In this document: piece after piece, positions 14,541-33,160 of the stretch | How positions within the stretch are numbered: the first letter of the stretch is position 1 | How the letters are laid out: each line of letters begins with the position of its first letter | Assembly: GCA_030602715.1 (NCBI GenBank) | Contig: JAUVZD010000011.1 | Location: forward strand, 1-64,000 | Reading direction: 5' to 3' | Source of the DNA: Candidatus Coatesiibacteriota bacterium | Lineage (GTDB): Bacteria > RBG-13-66-14 > B26-G2 > JAUVZD01 | Length of the DNA: 64,000 nucleotides | The notes under the pieces: generated by a model | What the model was told of the DNA's origin: nothing | Seen by the model: the letters and a program-made list of their open reading frames with translations, nothing else | Database searches by the model: none | Program-made: the position numbers and the translations under genes

Positions 14541-14573
14541 AGGTAATAGTAAGAATAGAATATGGAGATGAAT

Positions 14574-15989
14574 ATGAGCAAGATTAGACCCACAGTATTC
14601 GGTTTGTTAATGACCGTTATGGTGGGGGCTTTTATTTTGGGGGGGGTTGTGTGGGCGGTGGAGGAGGCAGCAATCTTGGATTTCCCGGCGGCGGAAGAAA
14701 AGCCAGAGGGGGAGGACGCGCCTGCAGGAGACGAGCCCCCTACCCAGCCCGGCGGCGCCGCACGCAAGGGCGAGGAGGGAAGCGAAGTAGGTAAGGAGAC
14801 GGAGTGGAAAGAAGACCTAAATTGGACAATTAAAACCTTGGATATAGTTATTGCTTGTATGGGTTTATTATTGGTATTGATTGCATTAATTGCAACAGGC
14901 GTTGGCATTTACCTAAATATTAGATATAAGGATTTGAAAAAAGATGTAGAAGAAATGAAAGAAGCTAAAAAAGAACAAGAGGAGCAGTGGACTGACATTA
15001 TTGAAAAAATCGAACAAGATATTAAAGACTTTGAAGAGACAAAGAAAAATGTTGAAAAATGGTTTGATACAAGAAGATCCTATATTGAGAATATATTATT
15101 AAAAACTACTGTTGAAAAAATTTCAGAACAAGATAAAGAAAAAATAGATGAATTCAGCCGAAGATTAGATTTTTTGGATTTATTTGGGCTTCCGCTAAAA
15201 GCAGAAGATTATATCACACGAGGAATCGATATGTTCAATAAGCGAAGGTATGAAGACGCTTTGCTTGCATTTAATAAAGCCATTGAGTTGAAACCCGATG
15301 ATTCGCTAGCTTGGTATAACAAAGGGATTGCTCTTGGAAAACTTGAAAGACATGATGAAGCCTTATCAGCCTTTAACGAAGCCATAGAGTCAAAACACGA
15401 TTATGCTTATGCATGGTATAACAAAGGGGTTTCACTTGGAAAACTGGGAAGAGATAATGAAGAACTAACCGCTTATGCTAAAGCCATTGAGTTAAAACCC
15501 AATTTTGCTGAAGCATGGAATAACAAAGGTGTCTTACTCTTAGAATTAAAAAAGAATGATGAGGCTCTTCTAGCCTTTGACGAGGCAACAAAGATAAAAT
15601 CAAATTATGCAGAAGCATGGAACAACAAAGGTATTTTGCTAAATAAAATAGGTAGATATGAAGAAGCACTAGAAAATCATAACAAAGCATTAGAATTACA
15701 ACCTAATTTTGTAAATGCATTAGTCTCAAAGGGAAATATATTAGATAAATTGGGTAGATATAATGAAGCACTTGAAGAACATACTAAAGCGATTGTGTTA
15801 AGCCCTCACGATAATTTTGCATTGTATAACAGAGCCTGTACTTATGTTTTATTAGAAGATAAAGATAACGCCCTCAAAGATCTAGCCCAAGCCATAAAAA
15901 TAGACGAAACAAACAAAGAAAAAGCCAAAAAAGACGATGATTTCAAATCACTCTGGAAAGACCCGGACTTCAAAAAACTGGTAGAATAA
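14574..15989 (+). CDS. Membrane-anchored coiled-coil TPR protein
   Basis: About 471 residues. In order: a signal/anchor segment (FGLLMTVMVGAFILGGVVWA), an acidic/proline-rich linker, a second transmembrane helix (VIACMGLLLVLIALIATGVG, near residue 100), a charged coiled coil (about 120-190) and seven or so TPR units of 34 residues (for example AWYNKGIALGKLERHDEALSAF). TPRs bind partner proteins; the partner is unknown. The start is ATG 14574, six bases after GGAG; two earlier in-frame ATGs exist. The first 250 nt are GC-rich like the neighbourhood and the rest is strongly AT-rich. Confidence 0.8.
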   Translation: MSKIRPTVFGLLMTVMVGAFILGGVVWAVEEAAILDFPAAEEKPEGEDAPAGDEPPTQPGGAARKGEEGSEVGKETEWKEDLNWTIKTLDIVIACMGLLLVLIALIATGVGIYLNIRYKDLKKDVEEMKEAKKEQEEQWTDIIEKIEQDIKDFEETKKNVEKWFDTRRSYIENILLKTTVEKISEQDKEKIDEFSRRLDFLDLFGLPLKAEDYITRGIDMFNKRRYEDALLAFNKAIELKPDDSLAWYNKGIALGKLERHDEALSAFNEAIESKHDYAYAWYNKGVSLGKLGRDNEELTAYAKAIELKPNFAEAWNNKGVLLLELKKNDEALLAFDEATKIKSNYAEAWNNKGILLNKIGRYEEALENHNKALELQPNFVNALVSKGNILDKLGRYNEALEEHTKAIVLSPHDNFALYNRACTYVLLEDKDNALKDLAQAIKIDETNKEKAKKDDDFKSLWKDPDFKKLVE

Positions 15990-19831: not shown

Positions 19832-19894
19832 CGGATTGAGAAGACCAAAATTGACCGAGAAACGAGCGTATGAAATCCTTTCCTCTTTATCCAC

Positions 19895-19923
19895 TTGACC
19901 AAATCCCCGCACCAAGCTATAAT
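19895..19923 (+). promoter_or_regulatory. Promoter of the beta-flower gene cluster
   Basis: TTGACC (19895-19900), a 17-nt spacer and a perfect TATAAT (19918-19923). It lies about 40 nt upstream of the first repeat-protein gene and is probably the promoter for all three. Confidence 0.8.
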
Positions 19924-19965
19924 TCAGTTTTAATCTCCACACACAAAAGAAACCAGGGGGTTTTG

Positions 19966-20400
19966 ATGTTAAAAAGCACCTCCTTCATCATCCTTCTCCT
20001 GCTGGTAGCGGGCGGCACTTGGGCGGACATCACCATCACCGACAGCTCCTATCGCACCGTCGCTCACATTGAGGACGACGGCGATGTGCTTGATTCCTCA
20101 TATCACACCATCGGTCACATAGAGAGCGACGGCGACATCACCGACTCCAGCTACCGCACCATCGGACACATAGAGGAAGACGGCGACATAACCGACAGCT
20201 CCTATCGCATCATCGGGCACATTGAGGACGATGGGGACATAACCGACAGCTCCTACCGCACCATCGGGCACATTGAGGACGACGGGGACATCACCGACGA
20301 TTCCTACCGCACATTAGCCCACGCCGAGGACATGATGCTCGGTCAAAAACCGGTGGTCGCTGCTTATATCTTCTTCTTCACCAATATGTTGACCCCCTAA
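19966..20400 (+). CDS. Secreted 16-residue-repeat protein, 5-fold beta-flower type (1)
   Basis: 144 residues: signal peptide (1-20, ending TWA), then five tandem 16-residue units of the form DSSYRTIGHIEDDGDI and a shortened sixth ending AHAEDM. A hydrophobic C-terminus follows (VVAAYIFFFTNML). The repeat layout matches what is annotated as 5-fold beta-flower protein in Bacteroidota; that assignment rests on my recall of the pattern. The start ATG follows CAGGGGG; the track begins 32 codons early. It is the first of three tandem paralogues. Ligand and function are unknown; expected in the periplasm or at the surface. Confidence 0.82.
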   Translation: MLKSTSFIILLLLVAGGTWADITITDSSYRTVAHIEDDGDVLDSSYHTIGHIESDGDITDSSYRTIGHIEEDGDITDSSYRIIGHIEDDGDITDSSYRTIGHIEDDGDITDDSYRTLAHAEDMMLGQKPVVAAYIFFFTNMLTP

Positions 20401-28967: not shown

Positions 28968-29176
28968 GTAGGGGCGGGAATCCCTTCCCGCCCGTAAAAC
29001 GGTAATCCCTTCCCGCCCGTAAAGCAATACAATCATACGATAGGGCGGCATAGGAATGCCGCCCCTACCAGCAACCACCGTTATCCTGTTATTACAAAAT
29101 GTAGGGGAGAGTTAAACTCTCCGCTACATACATTGGATTAACCTGATAGTGGGCAAACCCAAAGGTTCGCCCCTAC
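28968..29176. repeat. Cluster of palindromic intergenic repeats (copy 2)
   Basis: Modules A (28968-28993), a half-copy of A (about 29001-29019), B (29042-29069), C (29100-29128) and D (29149-29176, GGGCAAACC/GGTTCGCCC followed by CTAC). A, B and C are in the same order as at 11227, and the B-C linker CATCCTGTTATTACAAAATG-type sequence is nearly identical in both. Module D runs into the 3' end of the oxidoreductase gene and supplies its TAG stop. It fills the 308-nt gap between serS and that gene. Confidence 0.85.
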
Positions 29177-30141
29177 ACCTGACCCAACAGCTTGAAGACA
29201 AAATCCATAGAGATGAGCGCAGACTCCAGGGGGATGAAGGGCTCGCTTCCCTCCTCCAGCACGCTTACGATATTCTGGTAGATTTCAGGGTGGAGTGCCA
29301 AGGAACCGGTATATCCCGGATAGCGGTTGAAGTCCGGGCGTATCCCGGGGTCCGGCGGTGGCAGGGGCGCATCCCACTTGCGAATCTCGTTCAAGGTCTT
29401 GCCCCCAATCTCCACAAAACCCTTCTCCGCCAGAATGGTAAGGCAGGTCTCCTCACGGATGGTGGGCAGAACCGAACAACTGATAGTTCCGAAGGTCTCA
29501 CCGATATTGAAGGTGCCCACCAACGAGTCGGCGAACTCTATCTTTCTTTTCTTGGTGGCGGAGAGGGCTTGAGCGGAGTCCACCTTTCCAAAGAGGTAAC
29601 ATATCAAATCCAGGTGATGCAGGAACTGGAGATGGAGGATGGAGCCAGCCATCTTTATATCGGCGTGCCAGCCGGTGAAATATTGCGGGTCACGGCGCCA
29701 GTAGCCGGCAAAATGCACCTGAAAGACCTCCCCCATCCGGGGAAGCACCTTCTTCTTAAGATAGTCAACATAGGGATTGTAGCGATTCTGCAGAACCGGA
29801 AAGCATATACCTTTGGACCTCTCCGCACAGGCGATTATGTCCATCTCCTCGGGCCACATGACGATTGGCTTCTCCACGATGACATTCTTGTTTTGCCGGA
29901 GCAGTTCAGTGGTCATCTCGTAGTGCAAGCCGGAGGGGGTGCAGATGACATAAAAATCAACATTCTCCTCCTCAATCGCCTTCCGCCAGTCGGTGTAGGG
30001 CTTAGCGCCCTCATATGCGCTTGCCCGCTCGGGGATGATGTCACAGCAGGCGACCAGCTCCCCACCGACGGCATCTATCGCCTTCTTATTGAACTGACCG
30101 GCGTAGCCGTTTCCGATGAGCACAAAGCGTCTCTTAGCCAT
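29173..30141 (-). CDS. Gfo/Idh/MocA oxidoreductase, probable UDP-HexNAc(A) 3-dehydrogenase (WbpB/WlbA type)
   Basis: 322 residues. N-terminal Rossmann domain with VLIGNGYAGQFNKKA and the family VEKPIV motif (about residue 95), then the C-terminal substrate domain with GSILHLQFLHHLDL. In the WbpB/WlbA family this NAD enzyme oxidises C3 of UDP-GlcNAcA before transamination. The assignment is strengthened by its neighbours, an aminotransferase 9 nt upstream and a WbpD-like acetyltransferase in the same operon. ATG 30141 follows AAGGA. The TAG stop lies inside palindromic repeat D, so the C-terminus may have been set by the repeat. Confidence 0.82.
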   Translation of the reverse strand: MAKRRFVLIGNGYAGQFNKKAIDAVGGELVACCDIIPERASAYEGAKPYTDWRKAIEEENVDFYVICTPSGLHYEMTTELLRQNKNVIVEKPIVMWPEEMDIIACAERSKGICFPVLQNRYNPYVDYLKKKVLPRMGEVFQVHFAGYWRRDPQYFTGWHADIKMAGSILHLQFLHHLDLICYLFGKVDSAQALSATKKRKIEFADSLVGTFNIGETFGTISCSVLPTIREETCLTILAEKGFVEIGGKTLNEIRKWDAPLPPPDPGIRPDFNRYPGYTGSLALHPEIYQNIVSVLEEGSEPFIPLESALISMDFVFKLLGQV

Positions 30142-30150
30142 CAATAATCC

Positions 30151-31269
30151 TTATTTGAAGAAGTCCCTGATTGCTGAAATCACCCGCTCCACATCCTCCT
30201 CGGGGATGAGAGGGTAGAGCGGAAGGGAGAGCACCTCCCGGCAGAAACGCTCCGCAGTGGGGAACTGCCCCTCCCCATAGCCCAGATGGCTGTAGGCGGG
30301 CATGGTATGCAAGGGGAAGGGATAGTGTATCTGGCTCTCAACGCCCTTTTCGGCAAGATAATCCTTGAGCTCATCCCGCCTGGTGGTGGTGATGGCGTAT
30401 TGATAATAGACATGTTCCTTATGTGAGGGCACCTGGGGCAGGGTCAGCTTATCCGCCAGATCAGCCAGCCCCTCATCGTAGAGGTGAGCGACCGCCCTGC
30501 GCTTCGCATTCCAATCGTTTAAGTGGGGTAACTTAACCCGCAAAACAGCCGCCTGCATTGCGTCCAGCCGGGAGTTGTAGCCCAGACCGTGGGCTTGATA
30601 CCTGCTCCGCTGATAGTGGGAGCGTATGAGCCGAATCTCCTCCGTCAAGTCCGCATCGTCGGTGGTCACCGCCCCGGCGTCTCCGTATGCGCCAAGATTC
30701 TTCGCCGGAAAGAAGGAGAAGCAACCCACAGCACCGAAGGCACCCACCTTCTTGCCGTCTAAAGTTGCACCCAGAGCCTGAGCGCAGTCCTCCAGGAGAT
30801 GAACACCCCTCGGGGATAATATCTCCTGCAGGCGGTTCACATCGGCGGGCAAGCCGTTGAAGTGCACCGCCACCACCGCCCTGGTCCTCTCCGTGAGCGC
30901 CGATTCCACCGCCGCGATATCTATATTCATATCCTCGCCCACATCCACAAAGACCGGCTTGGCGGAAAGCCATGCCACCACCTCGGCGTTGGAGATATAG
31001 GTCAGGGCAGGCACCATCACCTCGTCGCCCTCCCCCACCCCCAGAGCCTGCAGGGCAAGCATCAGGGCGTCGGTGCCGGAGGCGACCCCCACCCCCTCGC
31101 TGGCACCAATGTAGTCGGCGAGCTCCCGTTCAAAGTCAGCCACCTCCGAGCCTAAAATATAGCGCCCGGAGGCGATGACCCGCTCTATGGCGGAGTCAAT
31201 CTCCTCCTTGATGGAGCCATATTCGGCTACCAGGTCCAGCATGCGTATGGTGTATTTTTGCTTGTGCAT
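30151..31269 (-). CDS. DegT/DnrJ/EryC1 sugar aminotransferase (WbpE/WlbC type)
   Basis: 372 residues, PLP-dependent fold type I. Seen are the N-terminal segment LDLVAEYGSIKEEID, GVASGTDALMLALQALG (about residues 62-78), the aspartate in HLLEDCAQALGA, and the Schiff-base lysine in FFPAKNLGAYGDAGAV (about residue 190). It transfers an amino group to a UDP-3-keto sugar. An internal start at residue 10 (MLDLVAEY) is possible. It is 9 nt upstream of the dehydrogenase and 32 nt downstream of the AT-rich unknown gene. Confidence 0.87.
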   Translation of the reverse strand: MHKQKYTIRMLDLVAEYGSIKEEIDSAIERVIASGRYILGSEVADFERELADYIGASEGVGVASGTDALMLALQALGVGEGDEVMVPALTYISNAEVVAWLSAKPVFVDVGEDMNIDIAAVESALTERTRAVVAVHFNGLPADVNRLQEILSPRGVHLLEDCAQALGATLDGKKVGAFGAVGCFSFFPAKNLGAYGDAGAVTTDDADLTEEIRLIRSHYQRSRYQAHGLGYNSRLDAMQAAVLRVKLPHLNDWNAKRRAVAHLYDEGLADLADKLTLPQVPSHKEHVYYQYAITTTRRDELKDYLAEKGVESQIHYPFPLHTMPAYSHLGYGEGQFPTAERFCREVLSLPLYPLIPEEDVERVISAIRDFFK

Positions 31270-31301
31270 GGGGGATAATTTATATTTTTAAATTACCTAA
31301 T

Positions 31302-32465
31302 TTAGTCGAATCTCTTCGCCATAATAATTGCCTTATACCATTCTCTTACTTCATCGTAAGTCATAAAATCACACACTTCTGATAGCTCCTTGAATGTAGG
31401 ACGATCCATTTCCCTTTCAACTTTCTTTAGCCGCTCTTCAGGAATTACTATTGATGCTTTAGGAATTGGATAATCAATTAGGATATCACTTAATCTTAAA
31501 AGACCTGAGTATATTGATGTGGAGTGTTCAATCTCAAAAAATCTAACAGGTTTATTTGTATCCTTCATGAAAAAGATAACATCTACCCACTTAGCAATAT
31601 TTATTGTGCGTGGCGAAGCGAAACTGGGAATAGATTCTAATGATAGTTCAGAGAATTTATGCCCGTCATAAATTTCCTTTCTGTCATTGGACGCAACCCA
31701 TACATCGTATCCTTTATCGCGTCCTATTCTAATTAGCAAATATTGTATTTCTAGATACTTCTTTCTTTCCTGTTTAGGAATTTTTTTTTCTTCTATATCG
31801 TCTTCCAGTTCTTTTACCTCTTTTTCTACAATTTCTTGTATGCCAGCATCTTTGCCAATGTATCCACGAACTAAAGAAAAAAGATAATTGTCAACTACCG
31901 GCAAAAAACTCTCCCCAATTATTTTAGAGACTTCAATTACAGAATTGTTAATCAACAGATATTTTTGCGGGTTTTTAGTTCCACGAGGTATTTCCGGATA
32001 AGCCCCGATAATTTTTAAAGCTTCATCAACCACTTTATTCCACTGACTACATTTATGGGGGAAAATTACCGTGAGAAAAAGAGTGACAAAGTTAATTCCC
32101 ACTCCTTTCAAGTTGTAAGGACTTTCAGGGTCATCAACTATTTCAAGTATCTTGTTCTCAATATCTACTGTTTCATCCAAAATAAATAAGAAAGTTTCAC
32201 CAATTTTTTCTATCCCGTTCTCAACAAAAGTATTGGGGTATAACTTTGGAGCAAAACCGAATGACTTATAAAAATTTAATACCTCACTTTCCTTTAATGT
32301 GTCCTGTTTATATTTTGTTACAATATCATTAATTGAAGAACTATAGTACTCCCACCAAGGTACCCCAGAAATAACGAAACCGTCTTTCTCACCATAATTT
32401 CTAAATATCTCATCACGCTGGGTAATGTATTCTTCGTAAGTCTCTTTAACAAGTTGTATATCCAT
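31302..32465 (-). CDS. Unknown AT-rich protein, possible PD-(D/E)XK-like nuclease
   Basis: About 387 residues, Lys/Glu/Ile-rich and clearly more AT-rich than the genes around it. An AAAGGAG site precedes two consecutive ATGs; the second is better spaced. The C-terminal third contains KWVDVIFF, then RFFEIEHSTSIYSGLLRLSD: the D-x(n)-E-x-E pattern could be a PD-(D/E)XK-type core, but I would not rely on it. It has no obvious link to sugar chemistry although it lies inside that operon, 32 and 56 nt from its neighbours. It looks like a horizontally acquired cargo gene, perhaps defensive. Confidence 0.6.
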   Translation of the reverse strand: MDIQLVKETYEEYITQRDEIFRNYGEKDGFVISGVPWWEYYSSSINDIVTKYKQDTLKESEVLNFYKSFGFAPKLYPNTFVENGIEKIGETFLFILDETVDIENKILEIVDDPESPYNLKGVGINFVTLFLTVIFPHKCSQWNKVVDEALKIIGAYPEIPRGTKNPQKYLLINNSVIEVSKIIGESFLPVVDNYLFSLVRGYIGKDAGIQEIVEKEVKELEDDIEEKKIPKQERKKYLEIQYLLIRIGRDKGYDVWVASNDRKEIYDGHKFSELSLESIPSFASPRTINIAKWVDVIFFMKDTNKPVRFFEIEHSTSIYSGLLRLSDILIDYPIPKASIVIPEERLKKVEREMDRPTFKELSEVCDFMTYDEVREWYKAIIMAKRFD

Positions 32466-32521
32466 CATAGGCTCCTTTCTATTTTTTTTCCAATTTTATG
32501 TCATTTTTTTCAATCACAACC

Positions 32522-33112
32522 TTAACACATCCCCACCAACCCCCACTCCCCCTGCTTATACCTCCGCCTGCACTTTCCGCAGGAATAAGCCTCTATATCC
32601 CCCTCCAGGAGGGCATCCAGATTTGCCCCGCACTCGCATATCCATCTGCGATGGCTGGCGGGGTTGCCCATGACCACCGAGTGGGGAGCGACATCTTTGG
32701 TGACCACCGCACCTGCGCCGACGAAAGCCCAAGCGCCGATACGCACCCCGCAGACTATGGTGGCGTTAGCGCCTATAGTGGCACCCCGCTCCACATAGGT
32801 GGTCAGATATTCGTCCACCGACTGCTTGTGGTAGGCGGAACGAGGGATGAGGTCGTTGGTGAAGACCATACTGGGACCAAGGAAGACATCGTCCTCGCAG
32901 ATGACCTTGTCGTAGATGGAGACATTGTTGTGCACATGGACATTGTTGCCCAGCTCGGCAAGGGAACCGATGAATACATTCTGCCCGATGACGCAGTCCT
33001 GGCCGACCTTGGCGCCGGGCATGATGTGGCAAAAGAGCCATATCTTGGTTCCTTTGCCTATCTCAGCTCCCTCTTCCACCACCGAGGTGGGATGGACGAA
33101 ATAATCAGCCAC
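32522..33112 (-). CDS. Hexapeptide-repeat N-acetyltransferase (WbpD/WlbB type)
   Basis: About 196 residues. Starts ADYFVHPTSVVEEGAEIGKG and continues with left-handed beta-helix repeats: KIWLFCHIMPGAKVG, CVIGQNVFIG, NNVHVHNNVSIYDKV, then the family segment GANATIVCGVRIGAWAFVGAGAVVTKDV. The C-terminus has a CECG...CGKC pair, likely a small zinc site. It acetylates the 3-amino group of a UDP-sugar. The start is taken as GTG 33112 (six bases after AGGACGG) to match the family; the track uses a TTG two codons earlier. First gene of the sugar operon. Confidence 0.88.
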   Translation of the reverse strand: MADYFVHPTSVVEEGAEIGKGTKIWLFCHIMPGAKVGQDCVIGQNVFIGSLAELGNNVHVHNNVSIYDKVICEDDVFLGPSMVFTNDLIPRSAYHKQSVDEYLTTYVERGATIGANATIVCGVRIGAWAFVGAGAVVTKDVAPHSVVMGNPASHRRWICECGANLDALLEGDIEAYSCGKCRRRYKQGEWGLVGMC

Positions 33113-33160
33113 ACTCAACCGTCCTGTTGCGCAGTCTCTTCATGGAAAAAATTCTCCGCC

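Follow-up and report, generated by a model that had tools for sequence, protein, structure and literature searches.

Type II restriction enzymes normally come with their methyltransferase. Modified DNA, in turn, is known to be read in restriction by EVE, SRA, YTH, ASCH, winged-helix, and similar domains. Enzymes that join such a reader to a nuclease are already known; in the EVE-PD(D/E)XK and EVE-HNH modification-dependent enzymes, both functions reside within one chain (PMC7641849, PMC7897488). Furthermore, the shuffling of modules is a recognized pattern among modification-dependent restriction enzymes, for those with an EVE domain (PMC7641849) as well as for those with a winged-helix domain (PMC11037411). 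Modified phage bases are also recognized by glycosylase-type folds. The anti-phage glycosylases Brig1 and Brig3, which belong to the uracil-glycosylase superfamily or are AAG-like, act in this way; both retain catalysis, and neither carries a nuclease (PMC11078745, PMC13160076).

The gene considered here lies at 31302..32465 on the minus strand of the window, the whole stretch of 64,000 nucleotides that was analyzed, and encodes a predicted two-domain endonuclease, both halves of which have known kin. Like the EVE enzymes, the protein combines a putative reader and a nuclease in one chain, and the same C-terminal domain is found elsewhere with EVE. However, the reader of those enzymes is EVE itself, whereas here it would be a glycosylase-fold domain. 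With Brig1 and Brig3, the protein would share the recognition of modified phage bases by a glycosylase-type fold. It is not a Brig relative, because its fold matches are of the HhH/Ogg type.

An AT-rich gene inserted into a sugar-nucleotide operon

The open reading frame on the minus strand is uninterrupted and, in the ORF listing, occupies 31302-32468, which gives 388 aa when translation begins at the upstream ATG of a tandem pair. The sequence before the start reads AAAGGAG-CCTATG-ATG, so that a ribosome-binding site (the AAAGGAG region 5' of the start codons) can be read at 32469..32480 on the same strand. Since the Shine-Dalgarno spacing fits the second ATG better, the coding sequence is more likely to be 31302-32465 (387 aa followed by TAA); residues are numbered throughout from the upstream ATG at 32468. 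The AlphaFold model of the product has a mean pLDDT of 90.7.

The initial annotation had described an AT-rich, 387-residue gene of foreign composition, and this description is borne out. The gene has a GC content of 34.0%, compared with 53.2% for the window, and its GC3 is 29%, compared with 72-74% in three neighboring genes; only 0.4% of segments of equal size are as AT-rich. By composition, the inserted block spans 31270..32525 (no strand assigned), with sharp edges at ~31270 and ~32525. A second AT-rich gene is present in the window at 14562-15989 (33.5% GC in its kilobase, with the window at 53%) and encodes a protein of 475 aa that has a membrane segment and a series of TPR-like repeat units. 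Separately, 19870-20400 encodes a protein of 176 aa that is predicted to be secreted and consists of short, nearly perfect repeats (DSSYRTIGHIEDDGDI and its variants).

The genes on either side of the insert belong to a sugar-nucleotide operon and lie on the same, minus strand. Upstream is a hexapeptide acyltransferase (acetyltransferase; 32522..33118; Pfam Hexapep 1.5e-20), and downstream are a DegT/DnrJ/EryC1/StrS aminotransferase (30151..31269; Pfam 4.8e-115) and a GFO/IDH/MocA dehydrogenase (29173..30144; Pfam 8e-19). The intergenic gaps are 56 bp upstream of the insert and 32 bp downstream. In five relatives, one from the same order and four from other genomes of the same class, no gene separates the acetyltransferase from the aminotransferase, and the two frames either adjoin directly or overlap. 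Given this adjacency, the 31302-32465 gene represents a lineage-specific insertion; it is specific to the source lineage, at least among the genomes compared, and was acquired by horizontal transfer as solo cargo. The earlier statement that the gene interrupts the operon, and the suggestion that it is carried as cargo, are therefore in agreement with the five empty sites, which also indicate that the gene is not a constant member of such operons. Around the insert, no convincing flanking repeat (direct or inverted), promoter, terminator, tRNA, or RNA family was detected, and no integrase was recognized near the AT-rich block.

Because of its position, the protein might have been taken for a sugar-nucleotide enzyme of the operon, and position is all that speaks for such a role. 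It is contradicted by the folds of both domains, by the absence of the gene from the operons of relatives, and by the foreign composition. Structure prediction, which the initial annotation had named as a check, gave no match to a sugar-biosynthesis enzyme, and we regard this idea as having essentially no chance of being correct.

The predicted C-terminal nuclease domain

Residues 228-388 (31305..31787, minus strand) form a PD-(D/E)XK-type nuclease domain, as judged by PADLOC, the predicted model, Foldseek, and conservation. Within this domain, residues 232-383 match the PADLOC family REase_II with an E-value of 3.9e-13. This is the sole PADLOC family that the protein matches, and no significant family was found for the 387-aa protein in Pfam, NCBIfam, or PHROGs. 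Relatives are widespread, and most match only the C-terminal half.

The AlphaFold model of the domain (pLDDT 96.3) has the order alpha-beta-beta-beta-alpha-beta, as in PD-(D/E)XK nucleases. By DSSP, the models contain helices at 232-251 and 319-332 and strands at 255-258, 297-300, 307-313, and 338-342. The leading Foldseek matches include BstEII, EcoT38I, Can2, and BsaWI, and the best folds are those of restriction and CRISPR-ancillary nucleases. BstEII, EcoT38I, and BsaWI are the nearest solved folds, with an identity of only ~10%. The E-values are weak (0.04), which counts against the Type IV-like reading developed below, although the matches agree in kind and the best ones are of the right kind. 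A search of PDB sequences with the C-terminal profile returned serine proteases only, and these matches were judged to be due to chance.

D296 is followed by E312-x-E314, an E-x-E variant in which Glu occupies the usual place of Lys in (D/E)-x-K. D296, E312, and E314, together with Q242 and D262, are invariant in all 35 divergent relatives that were aligned (35/35), and the segment T-S-x-Y-S-G-x-x-R of the domain is invariant or nearly so in the same alignment. A PD-(D/E)XK core had earlier been suspected in a D...FEIEHS segment, which corresponds to D296...E312-I-E314. The REase_II match, the model, the restriction-nuclease folds, and the invariant acidic residues all uphold this suspicion. 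Thus, the assignment of the C-terminal half as a PD-(D/E)XK-type nuclease core of the E-x-E form is supported, and it is quite likely that the protein has endonuclease activity.

The missing Lys is nevertheless a point against a Type IV-like nuclease. Together with the loss of the glycosylase center described below, the replacement of D/E-x-K by E-x-E could mean that the protein is instead an abortive or regulatory DNA-binding protein, with a nuclease core that is inactive or that acts only at its own promoter. However, E-x-E centers, in which Glu stands for the classical Lys, occur in active enzymes such as BamHI, and the invariance of D296, E312, E314, Q242, and D262 argues for selection on catalysis. 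We consider a purely regulatory or abortive role very improbable.

The N-terminal glycosylase-fold domain

The N-terminal domain (residues 1-205; 31854..32468, minus strand) is all-helical and, by Foldseek and by profile, has the fold of the archaeal-type 8-oxoguanine glycosylases (Ogg2/HhH). In Foldseek, the full model (pLDDT 90.7) matches TmOgg (3n0u) with an E-value of 3.5e-4 and a probability of 1.00, followed by MjOgg and SsOgg. By sequence, the profile of the N-terminal domain matches the archaeal-type 8-oxoguanine glycosylase 9o01 (E 0.0011); spike-protein matches of this profile look like noise arising from helical composition. The fold of residues 1-205, the K-G-x-G hairpin region, and an 18-residue spacing between catalytic positions are all held in common with the Ogg2 enzymes TmOgg (3n0u), MjOgg (3knt/3fhf), and SsOgg (3fhg).

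However, the Ogg2 glycosylases possess a catalytic Lys and a catalytic Asp, whereas this protein has Asn126 and Asn144 at these positions, along with a fused nuclease. Asn126 and Asn144 align with columns that differ between chains 9o01 and 9o02 (Lys/Ser and Asn/Asp, respectively), and these differences are taken to be engineered catalytic mutants. The catalytic Lys corresponds to Asn126 and the catalytic Asp to Asn144, with the same spacing of 18 residues as in the 9o01/9o02 alignment. Asn144 is Asn in every relative that has the column (76/76). At the position of the catalytic Lys, the relatives have A, S, G, or N, and Lys is not among the residues seen. Because both catalytic residues are replaced, the N-terminal domain has the shape of a glycosylase but is not expected to remove bases. 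An active glycosylase is thus ruled out, and the domain is better described as having the fold of the active enzymes than as being a member of them. It probably sets the target of the protein. The initial annotation, which was right about the nuclease core and the cargo gene, had missed this domain as well as the copper-linked sister clade discussed below.

Domain fusions and the closest relatives

The same inactivated N-terminal domain, with Asn at the catalytic-Asp position, is found fused to other effectors, namely an McrB-like AAA+ protein (L034) and NucS/YhcG-type nucleases of the PADLOC candidate system PDC-S02 (L005, L010, L011, L033, and L037). In the latter, the N-terminal domain is the same, including the Asn, but the nuclease half is NucS/YhcG-like with E-x-K rather than E-x-E. 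Membership of PDC-S02 is ruled out because the nuclease half differs and only REase_II is matched. Conversely, the C-terminal domain is fused to modules that read modified DNA or belong to restriction systems: to EVE in L100 (Pfam 7e-7) and also in L103 and L122, to HARE-HTH in some relatives, and, in L032 (691-2604, minus strand), to a DPPY-type/PglX-like DNA methyltransferase within one chain of 637 aa. This exchange of N- and C-terminal domains follows the same shuffling pattern as that of the modification-dependent restriction enzymes. The source genome itself carries two paralogues of the nuclease domain as solo genes (L012:6766-7470 and L013:6720-7508), one of which is clearly joined to HARE-HTH. 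The L013 paralogue appears to lie inside a housekeeping operon of the infB/nrnA/truB/ribF type, judging by gene identities read from the ORFs.

In a tree of the nuclease domain, the protein groups with L071, L072, and L073 (EVE-like-fused) with a support of 98/94. L071, from an Actinomycetota MAG, is 43% identical over its full length; it has several tyrosine recombinases around it, and the Gabija gene gajA (6.6e-275) is located ~2.5 kb away. L072, from Anaerolineales, is 35% identical and is preceded by a gene pair, Type I hsdR with YgjP, and L073 has a methyltransferase nearby. The surroundings of L071 and L072, the two closest relatives, have been counted in favor of a defense reading, and we think it rather probable that the protein serves in defense. 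No relatives were returned when the single sequence was compared with viral contigs, genome contigs, and phage records; an alignment query was needed to find them.

If the role is one of defense, the protein could be an ordinary Type II enzyme that cuts an unmodified sequence, with the host protected by a methyltransferase encoded elsewhere in the genome. The PADLOC label of the C-terminal domain is indeed that of a Type II REase, L032 is fused to a methyltransferase and L073 is near one, and the source genome (2.3 Mb) has many such genes, at least 10 of the N6/N4 type and several of the N6 type by family searches. However, there is no methyltransferase in the operon, and a cognate one is not found among the adjacent genes. 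Beside the relatives there is almost none; an N6/N4 methyltransferase was detected within 5 kb of 1 of 83 related loci, an insensitive count since the queries were the source genome's own methyltransferases only. Furthermore, a solo cutter of unmodified DNA would kill its recipient upon transfer. For these reasons, we consider a Type II enzyme an unlikely explanation. What is present, a reader-type domain joined to a nuclease with no cognate methyltransferase among the adjacent genes, is the arrangement of a Type IV enzyme.

The CopL clade and copper resistance

A sister clade consists of proteins of ~415-425 aa that share both the two-domain plan and the key residues. These CopL-type proteins differ from the present one in having a longer N-terminus and a fixed copper-resistance neighborhood, and they form a separate clade (support 99/92). 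The separate clade, together with the lack of metal genes in the operon of the 31302-32465 gene, rules out membership of the CopL clade. Metal-resistance genes lie within 5 kb of 50 of the 64 CopL-clade loci (among L071-L150) but of none of the 18 non-CopL-type loci in the same searches (Fisher p = 8e-10), a value that overstates the case because the loci are not independent, most being from Bacteroidota. CopL-clade genes also occur among copper or heavy-metal resistance genes on annotated plasmids from several phyla (Leptolyngbya, Sphingomonas, Cupriavidus, Enterococcus, Listeria, Hymenobacter, Komagataeibacter, Azospirillum, and Streptomyces); the loci L038, L039, L151, L152, and L154-L157 are clade members placed in clusters for copper/heavy-metal resistance.

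One clade member is CopL (Rmet_6120) of Cupriavidus metallidurans plasmid pMOL30 (L153:4233-5498; gene 180704-181969), which belongs to a copper-resistance cluster that serves as a model. Transcription of copL has been mapped to start at 181983, which is 14 bp upstream of Rmet_6120; inside copL there is also a start on the antisense strand, at 181548, and CopL has been described as a cys-rich cytosolic protein (PMC9045368, PMC7563307). The sequence comparison given above suggests that CopL may be a nuclease.

Given the tie of this clade to copper-resistance clusters, a non-phage role is possible for the family, and some members may not function in phage restriction, which weighs against the Type IV-like reading. 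The main rival to that reading, prompted by the sister clade, is damage-directed incision. Copper causes oxidative DNA damage, and the N-terminal domain is nearest to 8-oxoguanine glycosylases. The glycosylase-fold domain could find a base with oxidative or other damage, beside which the nuclease would nick the DNA and so start repair rather than restrict phages; also in favor is the company that proteins of the same plan keep with metal-resistance genes, on plasmids of several phyla. However, the present protein belongs to a different clade and has no metal-gene neighbors, and its two closest relatives adjoin defense genes. In addition, the gene occurs sporadically and as an insertion, which is not the behavior of a repair gene, and the same N-terminal domain is found on McrB-like and PDC-S02 proteins. 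Damage-directed incision is therefore considered improbable for this protein.

A proposed model for a probable solo modification-dependent endonuclease

Taken together, these results have led us to propose, tentatively, that the gene encodes a one-gene, probably modification-dependent (Type IV-like) endonuclease that was acquired horizontally. In this model, the N-terminal domain would bind DNA and probe or flip out a modified base without excising it. Recognition of the base would then license DNA cleavage by the C-terminal domain, which would probably work as a dimer and use Mg2+. Host DNA that lacks the target modification would be safe; consequently, no partner methyltransferase would be required, and a single gene that can move without a methyltransferase would be well suited to solo insertion into an operon. 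As solo cargo, the gene may be read together with the sugar operon, as its strand and the short gaps would suggest. Dependence on a modified base is put forward with some reserve. No C5-cytosine methyltransferase was detected in the source genome by family searches, a finding that is compatible with, though no proof of, a 5-modified cytosine as the target; an enzyme directed at such a base would require this absence.

More speculatively, inactivated Ogg-fold domains in which the catalytic Asp is fixed as Asn might constitute an unnamed class of base readers, carried by nucleases and McrB-like ATPases of prokaryotes. The PD-(D/E)xE nuclease of the present protein and its kin would then be guided by such a reader to the modified bases of phages, and that of the CopL clade to DNA that copper stress has changed. 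Within a partial coverage of the literature, no paper was found on an inactivated Ogg-fold reader in restriction. The 31302-32465 gene provides a clean example of a lone defense-type gene that separates a pair of sugar genes found side by side in relatives. If the proposal is true, an inactive glycosylase fold that has been joined to several types of effector would represent a new class of reader.
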